Source: Deltaproteobacteria bacterium (GTDB lineage Bacteria > Desulfobacterota > Desulfobacteria > Desulfobacterales > UBA11574). From it: 5,611 nucleotides of DNA. The stretch lies in NCBI GenBank assembly GCA_019313025.1, contig JAFDCA010000480.1:1-5611 (forward strand), in the 5' to 3' direction. The number at the start of each line of letters is the position of its first letter. Position 1 is the stretch's first letter. The notes beneath the pieces were generated by a model, which saw only the letters and a list, made by a program, of their open reading frames with translations, did no database searches and was not told the origin of the DNA. Positions 174-5,611 of the stretch are shown here, piece by piece. A program made the position numbers and the translations under genes.

Positions 174-770
174 ATGATGAACGAAAAAAAACGGATTTTG
201 ATGTTGAGTTTTGTCATTGTGGGATTGATTTTAGTTATGGCCTGTGCAACACCACAAGGGCCTAAACCGGCTCCGTCTGTTGAAGAAACCCAGTGTATTC
301 CGGATTGGACTGTGAACCCGCCTTCAGCGGAAGACGGTGTCTATGGGAGCGGACTTGCCAAGATGAATCAGCCTGCAATGTCCAAAACTTCAGCAGACCA
401 GCGGGCACGCCAAGAAGTCGTTATGGCCATTGAGGTGAAAGTACAGGCCATGGTAAAAGATTTTATGCAACAATCCGGCATTGGTGATGCAGCCCAATCA
501 CTCCAATTCGCCCAATCGGTGGGTAAAGGTATTTCTTCCCGTGTTCTTCAAGGCTGTCAAATCGTAAAGCGTAAAGTATGCCCGGACGGTACCTGGCATA
601 GTCTGGCGCTGTGGCCCATTGGAAATGCTAACGAACTTAAACAGGAGATCAATAACCAGGCTAAAAAACAGATTAAAAATGAGTATGCCCTTTACAACGA
701 ATTCAAGGCTAAAAACGGCTTTGAAGAATTGCAAAAAGAACTCGACAAACTCGACTTTACAGAAAAATAG
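174..770 (+). CDS. LPP20-family outer-membrane lipoprotein
   Basis: The 198-residue product starts with a short basic n-region (NEKKR), a hydrophobic core and a lipobox V-M-A-C with the lipidated Cys at residue 24. The +2 residue is Ala rather than Asp, which under the E. coli rule favours outer-membrane sorting. A Pro-rich spacer (27-35) leads to the LPP20 signature: I-P-D-W at 42-45, V-Y-G-S-G at 56-60, then an Ala-rich helix with DQRARQEV (75-82). The domain closes with a strand near residues 140-147 (TWHSLALW) and a charged helical tail to the end. LPP20 proteins include the Helicobacter antigen Lpp20 and Vibrio/Campylobacter FlgP, a flagellar basal-disk lipoprotein, but many members have no known role. 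Cys 41, 128 and 136 are extra cysteines that could form a disulfide. The 55-base spacing to the gene ending at 118 and the strong ribosome site make it a confident gene. Its partners are probably the related proteins downstream; co-transcription across the 351-base gap is uncertain. Confidence 0.92.
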   Translation: MMNEKKRILMLSFVIVGLILVMACATPQGPKPAPSVEETQCIPDWTVNPPSAEDGVYGSGLAKMNQPAMSKTSADQRARQEVVMAIEVKVQAMVKDFMQQSGIGDAAQSLQFAQSVGKGISSRVLQGCQIVKRKVCPDGTWHSLALWPIGNANELKQEINNQAKKQIKNEYALYNEFKAKNGFEELQKELDKLDFTEK

Positions 771-891
771 ACGCCCTTAATTTGCTTTCACTGAAATCAT
801 TGATGCCTAAATGAAACGGCTTGTTCAGGATCAATCCGAAACGCTCCGCCCATAATAAATAGTTTTCAATCATTAAAGAGCTTGCCGAAGG

Positions 892-936
892 GGGTATCCG
901 CCTGATAGACAGAAATAAAAATAAAGACGGATACCC
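892..936. repeat. 9-bp perfect inverted repeat with 27-base loop
   Basis: GGGTATCCG at 892-900 is exactly complementary to CGGATACCC at 928-936. The 27-base spacer is A-rich. There is no downstream T-run, so it is not a Rho-independent terminator. It could be a binding site with two half-sites, a stem in a leader RNA, or the ends of a tiny palindromic element. Confidence 0.6.
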
Positions 937-986
937 TAATCCTGAAAGTTTCGCCTATTTTGTTCAAAATCATTTGGTGTTGCATA

Positions 987-997
987 GGGTCAGACCC
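987..997. repeat. GGGTCAGACCC palindromic motif
   Basis: GGGTC and GACCC flank a single A, giving a perfect 5-bp inverted repeat. Motifs of the GGGTCAGACCC type resemble short palindromes I associate from memory with dispersed repeats near REP-associated Y1 transposases in proteobacteria; that link is not verified here, and no transposase gene is in the window. Confidence 0.4.
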
Positions 998-1045
998 AAT
1001 GTGTCCTCAACCACTTAAAACCGGCGTTGTGTTCAGAAAAAAATT

Positions 1046-1069
1046 GTACATACTGAAAGCAGTAAGTAC
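1046..1069 (+). repeat. Tetraloop hairpin in the leader of the tandem-LPP20 gene
   Basis: The arms are GTACATACTG (1046-1055) and CAGTAAGTAC (1060-1069), separated by AAAG. Nine of ten positions pair, with one A/A mismatch between 1050 and 1065. A T-G wobble (1045/1070) and a T-A pair (1044/1071) extend the stem. It ends 52 bases before the preferred GTG start. With no following T-run it is more likely a leader RNA structure or protein-binding site than a terminator. Confidence 0.6.
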
Positions 1070-1121
1070 GACTAGTTGTTGCCGTCAATTTGTAAACACA
1101 GGAATAACTCCCGGTTGCATC

Positions 1122-1955
1122 GTGATAAGATTAGTCTTGCCGGTCTTATTGATGATATCGCTGATTTCCTGTCAGGTTCCCCAGCAAAACCTTACATCGT
1201 CATCCGAAAATTCCGATCTATCTAAAATTTTGTTGATACCACGATGGTATGCTGAACTGCCGAACGTTAATGGTTGCCGGCTTGCCTATGGCTACGGTGG
1301 ATTATACCTTGACAACACACGCCAGAAAGAAGCGATCATAAAAAACGGTGCGGCGAATATGGCGAAAAACGATAAAGTGCTTATTAAAGCAGGATGGGTT
1401 GGAACGCAAAGCCGCAGCCAAGGATTGACCGCATCCTATATTTTGGAAAAAGAGTGGCAGGATCGAGCCTCGCTTCTTGAAAAAAACCTGAGGATTGTTC
1501 GTGAATATCGTATGAAAAATGGCGTTATTGCACTTTGTGCGTTTTGTCCGGATGAGGCATTGTTTCAAAACCTGATAAATCAGATTGATGACAGCCCTGT
1601 CAACATAAATGCTGATGAGCCGCCTGAATGGGTCAGAGAACCAAAATCACACCCGGATTATATATATGGCATCGGCACTGCGCCAAGCCGGATTAAACCG
1701 GGCAAGGCTTGGGAGGAAGCCGAGCGCCAAGCCAGGGCTGCTTTGGCGCTTAATCTTGCAGGGCGACATAATATTCTTCTAAAAACAATCTCTGAAAATA
1801 CGAGTTCCATGTCCCAGAAACTTTCCGAGACCGATGCTGAAATTGCTTTAACCAATGTCACAATCATTCGACATGGTTATAGCTATGCCAACAAATCATT
1901 CTATGCTCTGGCTCAAATGCCAACTCCGGCGCACCGGGTTAATACTGATAACTGA
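1122..1955 (+). CDS. Lipoprotein with two tandem LPP20-like domains
   Basis: Starting at GTG 1122 the product is 277 residues and opens with MIRLVLPVLLMISLISC, a compact lipoprotein signal with lipobox L-I-S-C and lipid-anchored Cys 17. The frame is open back to ATG 960, but that start, or ATG 999, would put 40-54 residues of cysteine-rich, unconserved-looking sequence before the signal peptide, so I prefer the GTG; its ribosome site is poor (an AGGA 18 bases upstream). Domain A: I-P-R-W-Y at 39-43, Y-G-Y-G at 56-59, an Ala/Asn helix, then a strand GVIALCAFC near 134-142. Domain B: P-E-W at 168-170, Y-G-I-G at 182-185, an Ala-rich helix (AERQARAALAL), then strand FYALAQMP near the end. Domain B is a clear LPP20 match; domain A is more divergent. 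A C-A-F-C motif (139-142) plus Cys 52 is unusual. Probably outer-membrane anchored; likely co-transcribed with the next gene, 64 bases away. Function unknown. Confidence 0.85.
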   Translation: MIRLVLPVLLMISLISCQVPQQNLTSSSENSDLSKILLIPRWYAELPNVNGCRLAYGYGGLYLDNTRQKEAIIKNGAANMAKNDKVLIKAGWVGTQSRSQGLTASYILEKEWQDRASLLEKNLRIVREYRMKNGVIALCAFCPDEALFQNLINQIDDSPVNINADEPPEWVREPKSHPDYIYGIGTAPSRIKPGKAWEEAERQARAALALNLAGRHNILLKTISENTSSMSQKLSETDAEIALTNVTIIRHGYSYANKSFYALAQMPTPAHRVNTDN

Positions 1956-1971
1956 ACAAAAATATTTTTGT
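1956..1971. promoter_or_regulatory. 16-bp perfect AT-rich palindrome after the tandem-LPP20 stop codon
   Basis: ACAAAAATATTTTTGT is its own reverse complement over all 16 bases and begins directly after the TGA at 1953-1955. A dimeric regulator site or bend site is possible. As an RNA stem it would be all A-U apart from one C-G pair and without a proper loop, so termination is unlikely. It lies about 50 bases before the start of the large lipoprotein gene, where an operator would fit. Confidence 0.5.
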
Positions 1972-1982
1972 CCATATCATTG

Positions 1983-2006
1983 CCTCAAGTCTAAATCGCT
2001 GAGGTG
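1983..2006 (+). promoter_or_regulatory. Ribosome binding site inside a short hairpin
   Basis: GAGGTG at 2001-2006 is the only Shine-Dalgarno-like run ahead of the large lipoprotein gene. Its GAGG lies in the 3' arm of an inverted repeat (CCTCA 1983-1987 with TGAGG 2000-2004, 12-base loop; a G-T wobble extends it by one). Spacing to ATG 2020 is 13 bases, longer than ideal, while spacing to ATG 2015 is 8. The 2015 ATG makes only a two-codon frame (ATG-ATA-TGA) whose stop overlaps the real start. Partial masking of initiation or local re-initiation is possible; the stem is short, so this is tentative. Confidence 0.4.
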
Positions 2007-2019
2007 AAAAGATTATGAT

Positions 2020-4593
2020 ATGAAATCTTTTCTAAAAACAATACTTCTGTTTGCCTTCGTATTAATGATCTGGTCTTTACTATCCGCTTGTCGGGGCGGG
2101 TTGAATAAAAACATAGACAGCATTCAAGAAAAGTTTGATCATAAAATTCCTTCTGAAAACATTTTTGTTGCACCAGATTATGATAAAGATAAACCACTGA
2201 CTGTAGCCATCCTTCCCTTTGAAAACCTGAGCCAGGAAAAAGAGGCATCTGATCTTTTACAGCGTCTTTTTTACAATAATTTCAGCTCTTTGGCATATAG
2301 AGATGTTGAGCTTGGCCATATTAATGCTAAGCTGCCGAATTTTAAACCCCAAAATATTTTTAAGACGATCGACCCGACGAAAACTGGAAAACTTCTTGAT
2401 TCTGATGCGCTGATCATTGGGAGGATAACGGAATTTGAAACTTTTTATGCTGGAGTTTATTCTTCTTTTACTGTTTCTGTAGAACTTAAAATGATTGATA
2501 CGGAAACACAGCGGTTGTTGTGGTCAGCGAAACATAAGGAGGTACAAAGAAGCGGAAGCATCCCGACAACTCCCATCGGGGCTATTATTGCTGCGGCTTC
2601 TAATGCACTTGATCTATCAAGATATCATATAATCACCACAATCAACAAACTTAGCCAATCTTTAGTAGAGACCATTCCGCCTTCGGCCAACTTAAAGGGG
2701 AAATCATTTCCTAAAATAACCAATCTCGTTCATAACGGGATGAACCGATTTCTTAAAAAGGGGGAACGCCTTGAAGTCGGTGTCGAAGGCACTGCCGGGT
2801 TAAAGGCGACGTTTAGTATTGAGCCCCAAGGCGTTACAGTCCAAATGCAAGAAAAAACTCCGGGTACTTATATCGGTTCATATATTGTTCGGCCTAAAGA
2901 TTCTATCCACGATGGTCTTATTGTCGTTCTTTTGTCAGACAGCTGGAACAATATATGCAGATGGGAAGACACCCTGGGTTTTGTGAATATCGATGGCATT
3001 CCGCCGGATTCCCCTTCAGGTATACAGGCAATTCCGAACAACCAAAAAGCAATTCTCCGATGGAACAAATCCGCGACAGTAGATGTCGTCGGTTACAACA
3101 TATTGCGGAGTACACCTCCTTTATCTGGTTACGAAAAAATTCATACCACGGAATTTAACCGCTTTGAAGATAAAGATTTGATAAATTATACCACTTATTT
3201 TTACCGTATCATCGCAGCCGACCAAGCCGGCAACGAAAGCCAAATAATGGTCGGTATTCCGTGTACCCCTGTACCACCAGGTCCGACATCGATTGAAGGG
3301 CGTCTTTCTGATGAATCGACCTGGCATTCCGGTGCCAATCCCTATCGTTTGAAAGGTGATGTCATTGTTCCGAAAGGTTCCATGCTCATTATTAAGCTGG
3401 GTGTCGTTGTTGAAGCGGATACAAAATCCCGTTTGATCATTCATGGCCGATTGGACGCCAGTGGAGATAAGAACGCCCCCGTGCTTTTTACAGCAGCCGA
3501 TATAAACGAAAACTGGGGCGGAATCGTCTTTGAAAGATCTGAGGAAAAATGTAGGCTGTCTAATTTTGAAATAAATGATGCTGAAATCGGTATTCGAATT
3601 ATCGAAAGCTCTCCGGAAATCGATACTGGTACCGTCAAAGAGTGCACTACCGGAATTAGAATTGAGGGTAGCCGCGCAGCGCCTGTACTGGATGACCTAA
3701 CCGTTTATAAAAATAAAACCAATGGCATCGAGGTCGCGGATATGGCGAACGCGCGCATCAAACGCTGCCGAATCGCTTACAACTCGGATTCCGGCGTAAA
3801 ATTAGACCGTTCACCGGCCAAAGTGCTTAAAAATGACATCAGCTATAACAAAAATGGCGTTCTCCTCGATCAATCTCCTGCACTGATTGGTGGAAATCTG
3901 ATCATCGATAATTCTCAGAATGAAATAAAAGCAATAAATATCGATCTTCCATCATTGAATGTCGATCTGAACTATTTCGGTGATCCCCAAAATGTCCGCA
4001 TTTTCAGCTCGCATCCAGATCGTAAAACAGCCGGTGTCGTAATCCTGGGTTCTAAAGACGTTAAGGGGGGACGCAGGTCAGTCATGATGGATTCCTTTCC
4101 TGAATCCGCTCCAATACATGAAAGAAGCTTGGTAATTGTTACCCGTAGATCGAAAAAAACTGATTCAAAAAAAATTGAGAATCCGCCGGCCGAACAAAAT
4201 TCTGCCGCGAGCCAGCAGAACATCCAGGCAGCTCTCACAAAAACTGCGCTGAATGCTTTTATTGAAGGCGTCTCTGCTGTACGCAAAAAGGATTATCCGA
4301 CCGCCATCAGACTCCTGAATATCGCCAAAACAGAGAAATCACGTGAGGCCGAAACACGGTTTTGGCTTGGATTTTGTTATCTTGAGATCGGCCAGTTGAA
4401 AGAGGCGGTCTTCAATTATTACAAAGCCACAAAACTCGATCCCGATAACACACAATACCTTTTACATTTGGGCACTGCGTTTTATCTGTCGGGGCAGCCC
4501 TTAAAAGCCGAAATTATATACAAGGAAGTTTTGCGGCGTGAGCCGGGTAACAAGGACGCCCAACAATTTTTAACATTACTTCACGAAAATTAA
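2020..4593 (+). CDS. Multidomain lipoprotein: GNA1162-like, Ig-like, FN3, parallel beta-helix, TPR
   Basis: 857 residues. Lipobox L-S-A-C puts the lipidated Cys at 24, followed by Arg, favouring the outer membrane. Residues about 58-220 resemble the GNA1162/DUF799 family, which has a CsgG/LpoB-like fold: VAILPFENLS at 62-71, DALIIGRITEF at 129-139, then a strand-rich stretch ending MIDTETQRLLWSAKH. Residues about 225-325 form an Ig-like beta domain of the type with G-E-x-L near 248 and P-G-T-Y-x-G-S-Y at 281-288. Residues 328-412 are FN3 (PPDSPSG start, LRWNKS, YNILRS, YFYRIIAADQAGNES). Residues about 430-680 are a right-handed beta-helix (NosD/PbH1 type): coil-start glycines at 524, 545, 569, 592 and 613 give 21-24 residue rungs. 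A charged Ser/Lys-rich linker (about 684-740) leads to about three TPRs (744-850; YPTAIRLL, LKEAVFNYYKATKLDPDN, PLKAEIIYKEVLRREPGN). No enzyme active site is visible; it looks like an adhesion or scaffold protein. It ends 33 bases before the next gene, probably in one operon. Confidence 0.95.
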   Translation: MKSFLKTILLFAFVLMIWSLLSACRGGLNKNIDSIQEKFDHKIPSENIFVAPDYDKDKPLTVAILPFENLSQEKEASDLLQRLFYNNFSSLAYRDVELGHINAKLPNFKPQNIFKTIDPTKTGKLLDSDALIIGRITEFETFYAGVYSSFTVSVELKMIDTETQRLLWSAKHKEVQRSGSIPTTPIGAIIAAASNALDLSRYHIITTINKLSQSLVETIPPSANLKGKSFPKITNLVHNGMNRFLKKGERLEVGVEGTAGLKATFSIEPQGVTVQMQEKTPGTYIGSYIVRPKDSIHDGLIVVLLSDSWNNICRWEDTLGFVNIDGIPPDSPSGIQAIPNNQKAILRWNKSATVDVVGYNILRSTPPLSGYEKIHTTEFNRFEDKDLINYTTYFYRIIAADQAGNESQIMVGIPCTPVPPGPTSIEGRLSDESTWHSGANPYRLKGDVIVPKGSMLIIKLGVVVEADTKSRLIIHGRLDASGDKNAPVLFTAADINENWGGIVFERSEEKCRLSNFEINDAEIGIRIIESSPEIDTGTVKECTTGIRIEGSRAAPVLDDLTVYKNKTNGIEVADMANARIKRCRIAYNSDSGVKLDRSPAKVLKNDISYNKNGVLLDQSPALIGGNLIIDNSQNEIKAINIDLPSLNVDLNYFGDPQNVRIFSSHPDRKTAGVVILGSKDVKGGRRSVMMDSFPESAPIHERSLVIVTRRSKKTDSKKIENPPAEQNSAASQQNIQAALTKTALNAFIEGVSAVRKKDYPTAIRLLNIAKTEKSREAETRFWLGFCYLEIGQLKEAVFNYYKATKLDPDNTQYLLHLGTAFYLSGQPLKAEIIYKEVLRREPGNKDAQQFLTLLHEN

Positions 4594-4615
4594 AATCTGA
4601 AAGATTCAGAAGGAT

Positions 4616-4621
4616 AAGGAG
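4616..4621 (+). promoter_or_regulatory. Shine-Dalgarno deciding the DUF4384 gene start
   Basis: AAGGAG ends 5 bases before ATG 4627. The nearer ATG at 4622 abuts the site with no spacing and reads only ATG-CCA-TGA, so 4627 is the start; it also gives a proper signal peptide. Confidence 0.75.
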
Positions 4622-4626
4622 ATGCC

Positions 4627-5611
4627 ATGACACCAAAAAGTAATGCCAGGTCATACTGGAGTACCCTTACATTAGTGCTTCTGCTGATCATTCCACGTAT
4701 TGGATATGCTTCAAACTTTCCTCAATGGCTTCAGGCGTATCAGGATGGGGCTCTTAATTTGACGAATGTTTATTACGGCGTTGGCTCAGCAGATTTTATC
4801 GGAGACTCACCTCAATATGAAAGCAAAAGACGATCAAAAGATCGTGCATTGGATGAACTCTGTTATCAACTTTCGGTGTCAATTAAATCCGAATTTAAGG
4901 AAAAGCTGGTCCAAAAGGGAAAACATGCGGATCAAGATGTCGCATCATCCCTTTTTGTCAGCACAAAAAAAGTTTTTTCAGGCATTCGGGAAAAGCATAG
5001 TTGGACTGATAGCCAAAATAGCGTTTATTGGGTGATGGTTGTCATTGACAAGGCAGAAGCGGACAGACAGGTCAAACAGCAAGAATTTGTAAAAGAAGTG
5101 GTGGATCGACTGGCAAACAATCAAGAAGAAATCGCGGCTGGATTAAAAAAAATGACCGCCGTCCTCATCCATCAGGGAAAAATTAATGAAGCCCGGTTTA
5201 ATGAACTTAAAAAATTTATGAAAACCATTGACCAAAAGGTTGGGTCAGCAGGTGAACAGACAAAAGCGGAATATACAGGCATAAAAAATGAAATAACAAG
5301 CCTCGGGAATAAATGGAATAAACAAGAAGATATGCTCCGTGATCAGAATAAAAAGATGGAAGCTCTAATGTCTCAGAACAAAGCCCTTCAGGATTTAATT
5401 GCTAAAATATCCAGGAATATACAAGGAGATCATTTTTTGGCACTAACCAAGGATGATGTGAAAAACCAAACTAAGAATCCAAAATTTAATGTTAAAATAA
5501 CCCCTCTCAAAGGCCAGGGTGCCGATTATTATGAAGGTGAAAGCATCCGGTTTCGTGTGGAAGCTTCCAGAAATTGCTACATCAAGGTCATCTATCTTTC
5601 TTCCATCGGTG
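4627..5611 (+). CDS. Secreted LPP20-like / coiled-coil / DUF4384 protein (3' end beyond window)
   Basis: The frame from ATG 4627 stays open to the window edge, giving 328 residues of an incomplete product. Residues 1-28 are a Sec signal peptide (hydrophobic 14-22, likely signal peptidase I cut after G-Y-A at 28) with no lipobox, so the mature protein should be soluble in the periplasm or exported. Residues about 31-141 are LPP20-like: F-P-Q-W at 31-34, Y-Y-G-V-G at 49-53, a helix with KDRALDELCYQL, and closing strand VYWVMVVID. Residues about 142-265 are polar, Glu/Lys/Gln-rich and mostly helical, consistent with a long coiled coil or oligomerisation stalk. From about 285 a DUF4384-type beta domain begins (FNVKITPLKG, YYEGESIRFRVEAS, NCYIKVIYLSSIG), cut by the window end. 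DUF4384 is a domain of unknown function found beside many partner domains. It follows the large lipoprotein by 33 bases with its own strong ribosome site; co-transcription is likely. Confidence 0.92.
   Translation, partial: MTPKSNARSYWSTLTLVLLLIIPRIGYASNFPQWLQAYQDGALNLTNVYYGVGSADFIGDSPQYESKRRSKDRALDELCYQLSVSIKSEFKEKLVQKGKHADQDVASSLFVSTKKVFSGIREKHSWTDSQNSVYWVMVVIDKAEADRQVKQQEFVKEVVDRLANNQEEIAAGLKKMTAVLIHQGKINEARFNELKKFMKTIDQKVGSAGEQTKAEYTGIKNEITSLGNKWNKQEDMLRDQNKKMEALMSQNKALQDLIAKISRNIQGDHFLALTKDDVKNQTKNPKFNVKITPLKGQGADYYEGESIRFRVEASRNCYIKVIYLSSIG

Follow-up and report, generated by a model that had tools for sequence, protein, structure and literature searches.

Gene content of the window

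The window, meaning the whole 5,611-nucleotide stretch of DNA that was analysed, contains four open reading frames by ORF calling, all on the forward strand, as are all features given below. A (174 to 770) encodes a putative LPP20-family lipoprotein of 198 amino acids, B (1122 to 1955) a putative lipoprotein of 277 amino acids with two tandem LPP20/SHS2-like domains, C (2020 to 4593) a putative lipoprotein of 857 amino acids with GNA1162, FN3-like, beta-helix, and TPR parts, and D (4627 to 5611) a secreted protein in which an LPP20 domain, a coil, and DUF4384 follow one another. The D gene is cut by the window edge: 328 amino acids are encoded within the window, and the full-length D protein P0055 has 450. 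The first cysteine, which follows a hydrophobic stretch, is residue 24 in A, 17 in B, and 24 in C, and it is on this motif, judged by eye, that the three are considered putative lipoproteins. The first cysteine of D is residue 79, and no lipobox was seen by eye.

Upstream of A, positions 2 to 118 hold the 3' end of an MltC-type lytic transglycosylase gene, also cut by the window edge, whose frame 1 ends ...LPYKETQDYIQRVFGRSKIYRAL*. This gene end was absent from an earlier, sequence-only reading of the DNA, as were the FN3-like, beta-helix, and TPR parts of C. Promoter-like sites (16, versus 11.2 in shuffles) and terminator-like sites (10, versus 5.9) were in excess by about 1.3 to 1.4 sd, and these counts were set aside as evidence. 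An Rfam search of the window returned zero families.

LPP20-type domains in A, B, and D

The sequence-only reading had described four copies of a P-x-W...Y-G-x-G pattern, and a six-frame search for P.W.{6,24}YG.G recovered exactly four, in the same places (residues A43, B40, B168, and D32). Of 20,000 shufflings of the four-protein set, 46 contained any copy of the pattern. Each copy had also been taken to mark an LPP20-like domain, and this stands for three of them, with the first copy in B only probable. The segments concerned are residues 43 to 145 of A (300 to 608), residues 38 to 141 of B (B1, 1233 to 1544), residues 168 to 267 of B (B2, 1623 to 1922), and residues 30 to 154 of D (D1, 4714 to 5088), the last of LPP20/Tip-alpha type. 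In the Pfam scan B2 exceeded the LPP20 (PF02169) cut-off of 25.9 bits (29.1 bits), A and D fell under it (22.6 bits, E 1.5e-4, and 17.7 bits, respectively), and B1 had no LPP20 match. The A ortholog in G001, the closest genome examined, scored 30.2 bits, and the A domain matched both B2 and D1 in profile comparison. The A segment is an LPP20/SHS2 domain on profile evidence; B2 and D1 are too, on the evidence of both profile and predicted fold. B1 probably has the same fold, as its strands are predicted in the right order and in register with B2.

Sequence similarity was rejected as proof of B1: a profile of the A domain scored at least 10 bits on the C-terminal half of 62 of the 63 B homologs, and at least 5 bits on the N-terminal half of none of the 63 and on none of 1,260 shuffled sequences. 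PDB sequence searches with A alone, with the B profile, and with the D profile gave no credible match.

Predicted hairpin inserts in B

In passages of PMC12222027, FlgP is described as having an SHS2 fold in which a long hairpin is inserted between the helix and the second strand, ring formation in the FlgP family is said to accompany this insert, FlgQ is described as resembling two FlgP repeats, and a figure legend sets the FlgP ring hairpin against Lpp20. By DSSP, the predicted model of B places a beta-hairpin after the helix and before the second core strand in both halves, at residues 85 to 110 (1374 to 1451) in B1 and residues 220 to 244 (1779 to 1853) in B2. Because the insert is found in both modeled halves, the predicted architecture of B is FlgQ-like, and the predicted hairpins suggest ring formation for B alone among the four proteins. 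The best Foldseek match of the B model was 9hmf_A, a C. jejuni motor scaffold (E 9e-3, probability 0.99), with zero matches at E 1e-3 or better; the entry names a motor scaffold only, and we infer from its size of 106 residues that it is FlgP.

The start of B (window 960 to 1122) is uncertain and could be the GTG at 1122 or an ATG at 999. Twenty of the 63 B homologs are 318 amino acids long, consistent with the ATG. A CCRQFV-like block upstream of the GTG, present in about nine of 16 aligned B homologs, matches locus L057 at the DNA level with scattered indels; it may belong to the coding sequence or be an element upstream of it.

The GNA1162-beta-helix lipoprotein C

By its sequence, C is a lipoprotein of GNA1162 type that also carries FN3-like, beta-helix, and TPR parts. 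The GNA1162-like domain (PF05643, residues 54 to 192, 2179 to 2595) scored 26.5 bits against a cut-off of 25.9 and matched PDB 4hrv, which is GNA1162, at E 4e-4. Unlike Neisseria GNA1162, which it resembles over this domain, C continues with an FN3-like domain (residues 330 to 407, 3007 to 3240; Pfam fn3 E 0.063, under cut-off), a right-handed beta-helix (residues 488 to 634, 3481 to 3921; Beta_helix 6.4e-13, NosD 7.5e-12), and TPR repeats found by Pfam (residues 777 to 852, 4348 to 4575). By their titles, open papers on GNA1162/NMB1163/NMB1164 are mostly vaccine or antigen work. The C family was defined as P0001 to P0048 of 54 matches at E 1e-3, with six partial matches dropped. Searched against the PDB, the C profile matched mostly TPR proteins among the matches listed (60 of 138). 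Single-sequence scans of genome contigs and viral contigs with C found no relatives, an alignment scan yielded a single locus, L001, and a plasmid scan gave one partial match, to the beta-helix.

The joining of a GNA1162 domain to a beta-helix is what an export or surface-display apparatus might show, in which the GNA1162 domain would form a CsgG/PelC-type ring and the beta-helix would handle a polysaccharide or secreted fibre. A passage of PMC12141448 describes PelC as a periplasmic ring of twelve lipoproteins, and CsgG-domain TPR proteins lie near four of the 18 long C-like genes considered below. However, C matches CsgG (PF03783) weakly, at 13.1 bits, under the cut-off of 20.8 (E 0.059), and no polymer-export gene was found by eye in the G001 contigs read, where a Pfam scan covered some of the genes. 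An export function is judged quite unlikely.

Protein D

DUF4384 begins at residue 301 of D (5527 to 5610, Pfam), and in P0055 the domain (PF14326) scored 41.1 bits against a cut-off of 27 (E 1.9e-10). Pfam gave no FlgT family for D up to E 1, in a sequence search that may miss a shared fold. The D model was used for the N-terminal domain and, loosely, for the Ig-like end; residues 83 to 116 have pLDDT below 50. The common fold proposed earlier was supported in that the predicted folds of B2 and D1 match Lpp20, which is the best match of D; at the position of the insert, however, the D model has a helix and no hairpin, with low confidence. DUF4384 appears in open papers that by title concern orthocaspases and Deinococcus. 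Near one D-like gene, L098 10694-12375 encodes a Peptidase_C14 caspase domain (2e-20); the ORF containing this domain stops at 11197, and another ORF comes after it. A D-like stretch also lies inside a 948-amino-acid protein of genome G040 (L103 341-3184).

Protein A and the adjoining transglycosylase

The terminus LPYKETQDYIQRVFGRSKIYRAL* is nearly the same as the C-terminus of the protein encoded by the gene preceding A in G001 (L056 756-1865), and that protein matches Mltc_N (3e-9) and SLT (3e-21) in Pfam. A-like matches were found at 38 places in 35 of 194 genomes of the order, and 30 of these places were examined, over 2.2 to 3.6 kb each. An MltC-type gene was present in 13 of the 30 loci and a second nearby LPP20 gene in 18, two of them weak, so both a transglycosylase adjoining A and adjacent LPP20 genes are common in the order. 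The window, at 2 to 770, has the same pair of MltC-type and LPP20 genes as these related genomes, and differs from them in two ways: 18 of the 30 loci have a second LPP20 gene close by, and the window has B, C, and D downstream. In a PHROGs search A matched one unknown family. On the opposite strand beside A and the transglycosylase, G001 encodes a CHASE2 cyclase and an SH3-M48 peptidase (L056 2412-5847).

Gene linkage in close relatives

As a proxy for linkage, protein clusters whose longest contigs have equal size in bases were identified among 48 clusters for C, 63 for B, and 120 listed of 170 for D. There were 13 equal-size links between B and C, at least 10 between C and D, at least seven between B and D, and at least six joining all three, the lower bounds reflecting the 120 of 170 D clusters listed. 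In a control with sizes shifted by 1 to 50 bases, the means were 0.19, 0.28, and 0.62 for B-C, C-D, and B-D, respectively. One C-D link (8787 bases, proteins 99 to 100% identical to those of the window) is probably the window's own contig. This is strong, if indirect, evidence of linkage among B, C, and D in close relatives.

G001, a Deltaproteobacteria MAG, was the sole genome found with an orthologous C. B is directly upstream of C there (L001), A is on contig C282, D is on C19, and the B-C pair is on another contig. Since the 3' end of A is 97 bases from a contig end and B is the first gene on its own contig, A and B may be adjacent across a contig break. D starts about 245 bases from a contig end but does not follow C, because other genes come after C on its contig. 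D itself is followed by a 174-amino-acid protein without a Pfam match and then by a 1074-amino-acid WD40 protein (L055 4822-10199).

Strong D matches occur in eight of the 194 genomes. Of eight D loci examined (L055, L097-L103), some on short contigs, none shows a C-like gene. B matches occur in seven of 389 genomes of the order and are nearly full length in G001 and G040 only. In G040 the B-like gene adjoins a 2335-amino-acid protein that the C profile does not match. At L132 3-8204, a distant tandem B homolog is next to this protein, the start of which looks by eye like RCC1 repeats. With A and D on other contigs than B-C in G001 and C absent from the eight D loci examined, the complex suggested by the sequence-only reading was not supported as a single fixed set of four genes.

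Neighborhoods of C-like genes in the order

The C profile matched 176 of the 194 genomes at E 1e-3, often by common parts alone. Eighteen loci with long C-like genes (626 to 933 amino acids) were chosen from the best matches, spanning 5.8 to 20 kb and in some cases cut by contig ends; their genomes are related, and the counts that follow are not independent events. FAM1, a family defined by blastp, was found within 10 kb of the C-like gene in 14 of the 18 loci, and within 2.2 kb in 13 of those 14. It was missing from L057, where B is the neighbor, and from L036, L037, and L039, in which C or the contig is truncated. Genome-wide, 15 long-form genomes had 17 LPP20 hits (E 0.01 or better), with none in G086 or G042, and 10 of the 17 were within 10 kb of a C-like gene, in nine of the 15 genomes. 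As all 10 of these hits sit in FAM1 genes, FAM1 is on sequence an LPP20-type family, and the member at L041 has no Pfam match. The FAM1 profile also matched FAM9 (E 4e-10) and the N-terminal part of the DUF4384 family FAM12 (9e-6). Profile-profile comparison of FAM1 with the window's A, B, and D gave no significant match, and FAM1 was rejected as an ortholog of B, the best E being 0.02.

The cluster proposed for the window recurs in part. GNA1162-beta-helix genes lie near LPP20-type genes in most long-form loci, with the majority of LPP20 hits close by, but no LPP20 hit fell on the contig of the short C-like form in any of 11 genomes. A neighborhood survey had been proposed along with that cluster; the linkage of B, C, and D and the pairing with LPP20-type genes held up, whereas DUF4384 was found within 10 kb of a long C-like gene in only three of the 15 genomes.

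Other families found no more than 10 kb from the C-like gene, each named after one or a few Pfam-scanned members, included TPR-SLH in eight of the 18 loci, FecR in seven, CHASE2 and TPR-amidase_3 in six each, CsgG-TPR and the FlgT_N-type FAM9 in four each, and SpoIID and DUF4384 in three each. Taken together, amidase_3 or SpoIID genes were near seven of the 18 long C-like genes.

LpoA/LpoB-type lipoproteins regulate wall synthases, and A, B, and D could likewise be small outer-membrane or periplasmic regulators that activate or restrain wall hydrolases and form no ring, with C a separate binding lipoprotein. The MltC-type genes near A-like genes and the amidase_3 and SpoIID genes near C-like ones favor this, as does Lpp20, contrasted with the FlgP ring hairpin in the legend cited above, as the best fold match of D. 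The predicted hairpins in both halves of B weigh against it. No wall hydrolase was found by eye beside the B-C pair at L001, which also counts against it, and this alternative is considered unlikely.

The CHASE2 and FecR families, together with DUF4384 neighbors, the WD40 protein near D in G001, and the caspase-domain ORF near one D-like gene (L098), might instead indicate sensing, with the proteins acting in envelope stress or signaling and LPP20 serving as a generic binding fold. These partners all lie outside the window and differ by locus, however, and a signaling function is considered quite unlikely.

Comparison with flagellar systems

B resembles the FlgP/FlgQ basal disk of Campylobacter in that, as in FlgQ, two predicted SHS2 domains are joined in tandem, each with a predicted hairpin insert; unlike that system, the window has no flagellar genes, and B is accompanied by a GNA1162-beta-helix lipoprotein and by a DUF4384 protein. 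For Vibrio, passages of PMC6504787 assign FlgO and FlgP to the outer membrane and FlgT to the H ring. The likeness is in two outer-membrane-associated proteins and a third part with an SHS2-like fold, but Pfam gave no FlgT for D and no FlgO for C. In H. pylori, according to passages of PMC11756786, HP1456 (Lpp20) and HP1454 are encoded in the same operon and both interact with FlgP, and a strain lacking hp1456 did not differ from wild type in flagella, motility, motor structure, or bacitracin resistance, a result that cautions against assigning function by fold. In contrast to the window, no GNA1162, beta-helix, or DUF4384 partner is described in those passages.

The four proteins could be accessories of a flagellar motor, similar to a basal disk or H ring and encoded apart from the main flagellar genes. 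The resemblance of B to FlgP/FlgQ and the sites of FlgO, FlgP, and FlgT in Vibrio point this way, as do the FlgT_N-type matches near some C-like genes (FAM9, 24.5 bits, under the cut-off of 28.8) and the presence of the P-ring gene flgI in G001. A search of all 18 genomes with long C-like genes found FlgI in 10, never on the contig of the C-like gene, although contigs were often short; the eight without a hit are drafts, and these absences are weak. Because FlgI is present in 10 of 18 and never on a C-like contig, a flagellar role is less likely, and it is the least probable of the explanations considered.

A candidate envelope scaffold

The reading that we prefer, with a probability of about 0.4, is that B, C, and D, with A, form a non-flagellar periplasmic scaffold that is anchored in the outer membrane, built like FlgO/FlgP/FlgT, and tied to cell-wall enzymes. 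From domain content, gene order, linkage, and lipidation motifs seen by eye, we infer the oligomerization, location, partnership, and function of such a scaffold. A would be encoded in a unit just upstream of B, C, and D. The lipidated B and C, the latter with its GNA1162 domain, would sit beneath the outer membrane and oligomerize, and the beta-helix and TPRs of C would reach into the periplasm as binding arms. The soluble D would attach by way of the LPP20 domain, the coil, and the Ig-like end formed by DUF4384. The tie to cell-wall enzymes is suggested by the transglycosylase beside A and by amidase_3 and SpoIID near C-like genes elsewhere, and the scaffold would position wall cutting, or hold it back, at one defined site in the envelope.

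Several observations weigh against this scaffold: the G001 genes are on three contigs, the eight D loci examined are without C, and the B gene of G040 is beside a protein negative for the C profile. In addition, FAM1 has no significant match to A, B, or D of the window and B1 none in sequence, the hairpin is seen in B and not in the low-confidence D model, and the wall-enzyme families vary by locus, with none seen by eye at the B-C pair of G001. A more specific form of the preferred reading is doubtful. In it, B and C would be the subunits of a ring or lattice of lipoproteins beneath the outer membrane in Desulfobacterota, and this structure, joined by soluble D, would position wall hydrolases and be an equivalent, outside flagella, of the basal disk or H ring. 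If this were true, the FlgO/FlgP/FlgT-type disk would be one offshoot of an older and wider kit of envelope scaffolds.

To our knowledge, work on LPP20/SHS2 lipoproteins has mostly concerned flagellar motors and H. pylori. Here the LPP20/SHS2 fold recurs in an envelope neighborhood with a GNA1162-beta-helix lipoprotein and cell-wall enzymes, and in eight of the 18 draft genomes no P-ring (FlgI) hit was found. If the assembly is real, disk-forming proteins could be tested in a setting outside flagella, and an uncharacterized gene family of Desulfobacterota would gain a function. Searches found no open papers joining LPP20 with DUF4384, LPP20 with MltC, or LPP20 with peptidoglycan in Desulfo-, and the papers matched in a search pairing GNA1162, LPP20, and CsgG concern, in their available text, other subjects.

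The long C-like genes of L034, L035, L038, L040, and L117-L120 are surrounded by wide envelope clusters in which CHASE2, FecR, TPR-SLH, TPR-amidase_3, SpoIID, and CsgG-TPR genes are combined differently from locus to locus. At L042 (5191-8534), and by eye at L045 and L049, a short form with GNA1162 and beta-helix parts (about 550 amino acids) follows a protein of about 560 amino acids, which at L042 has FHA and YscD-type domains.
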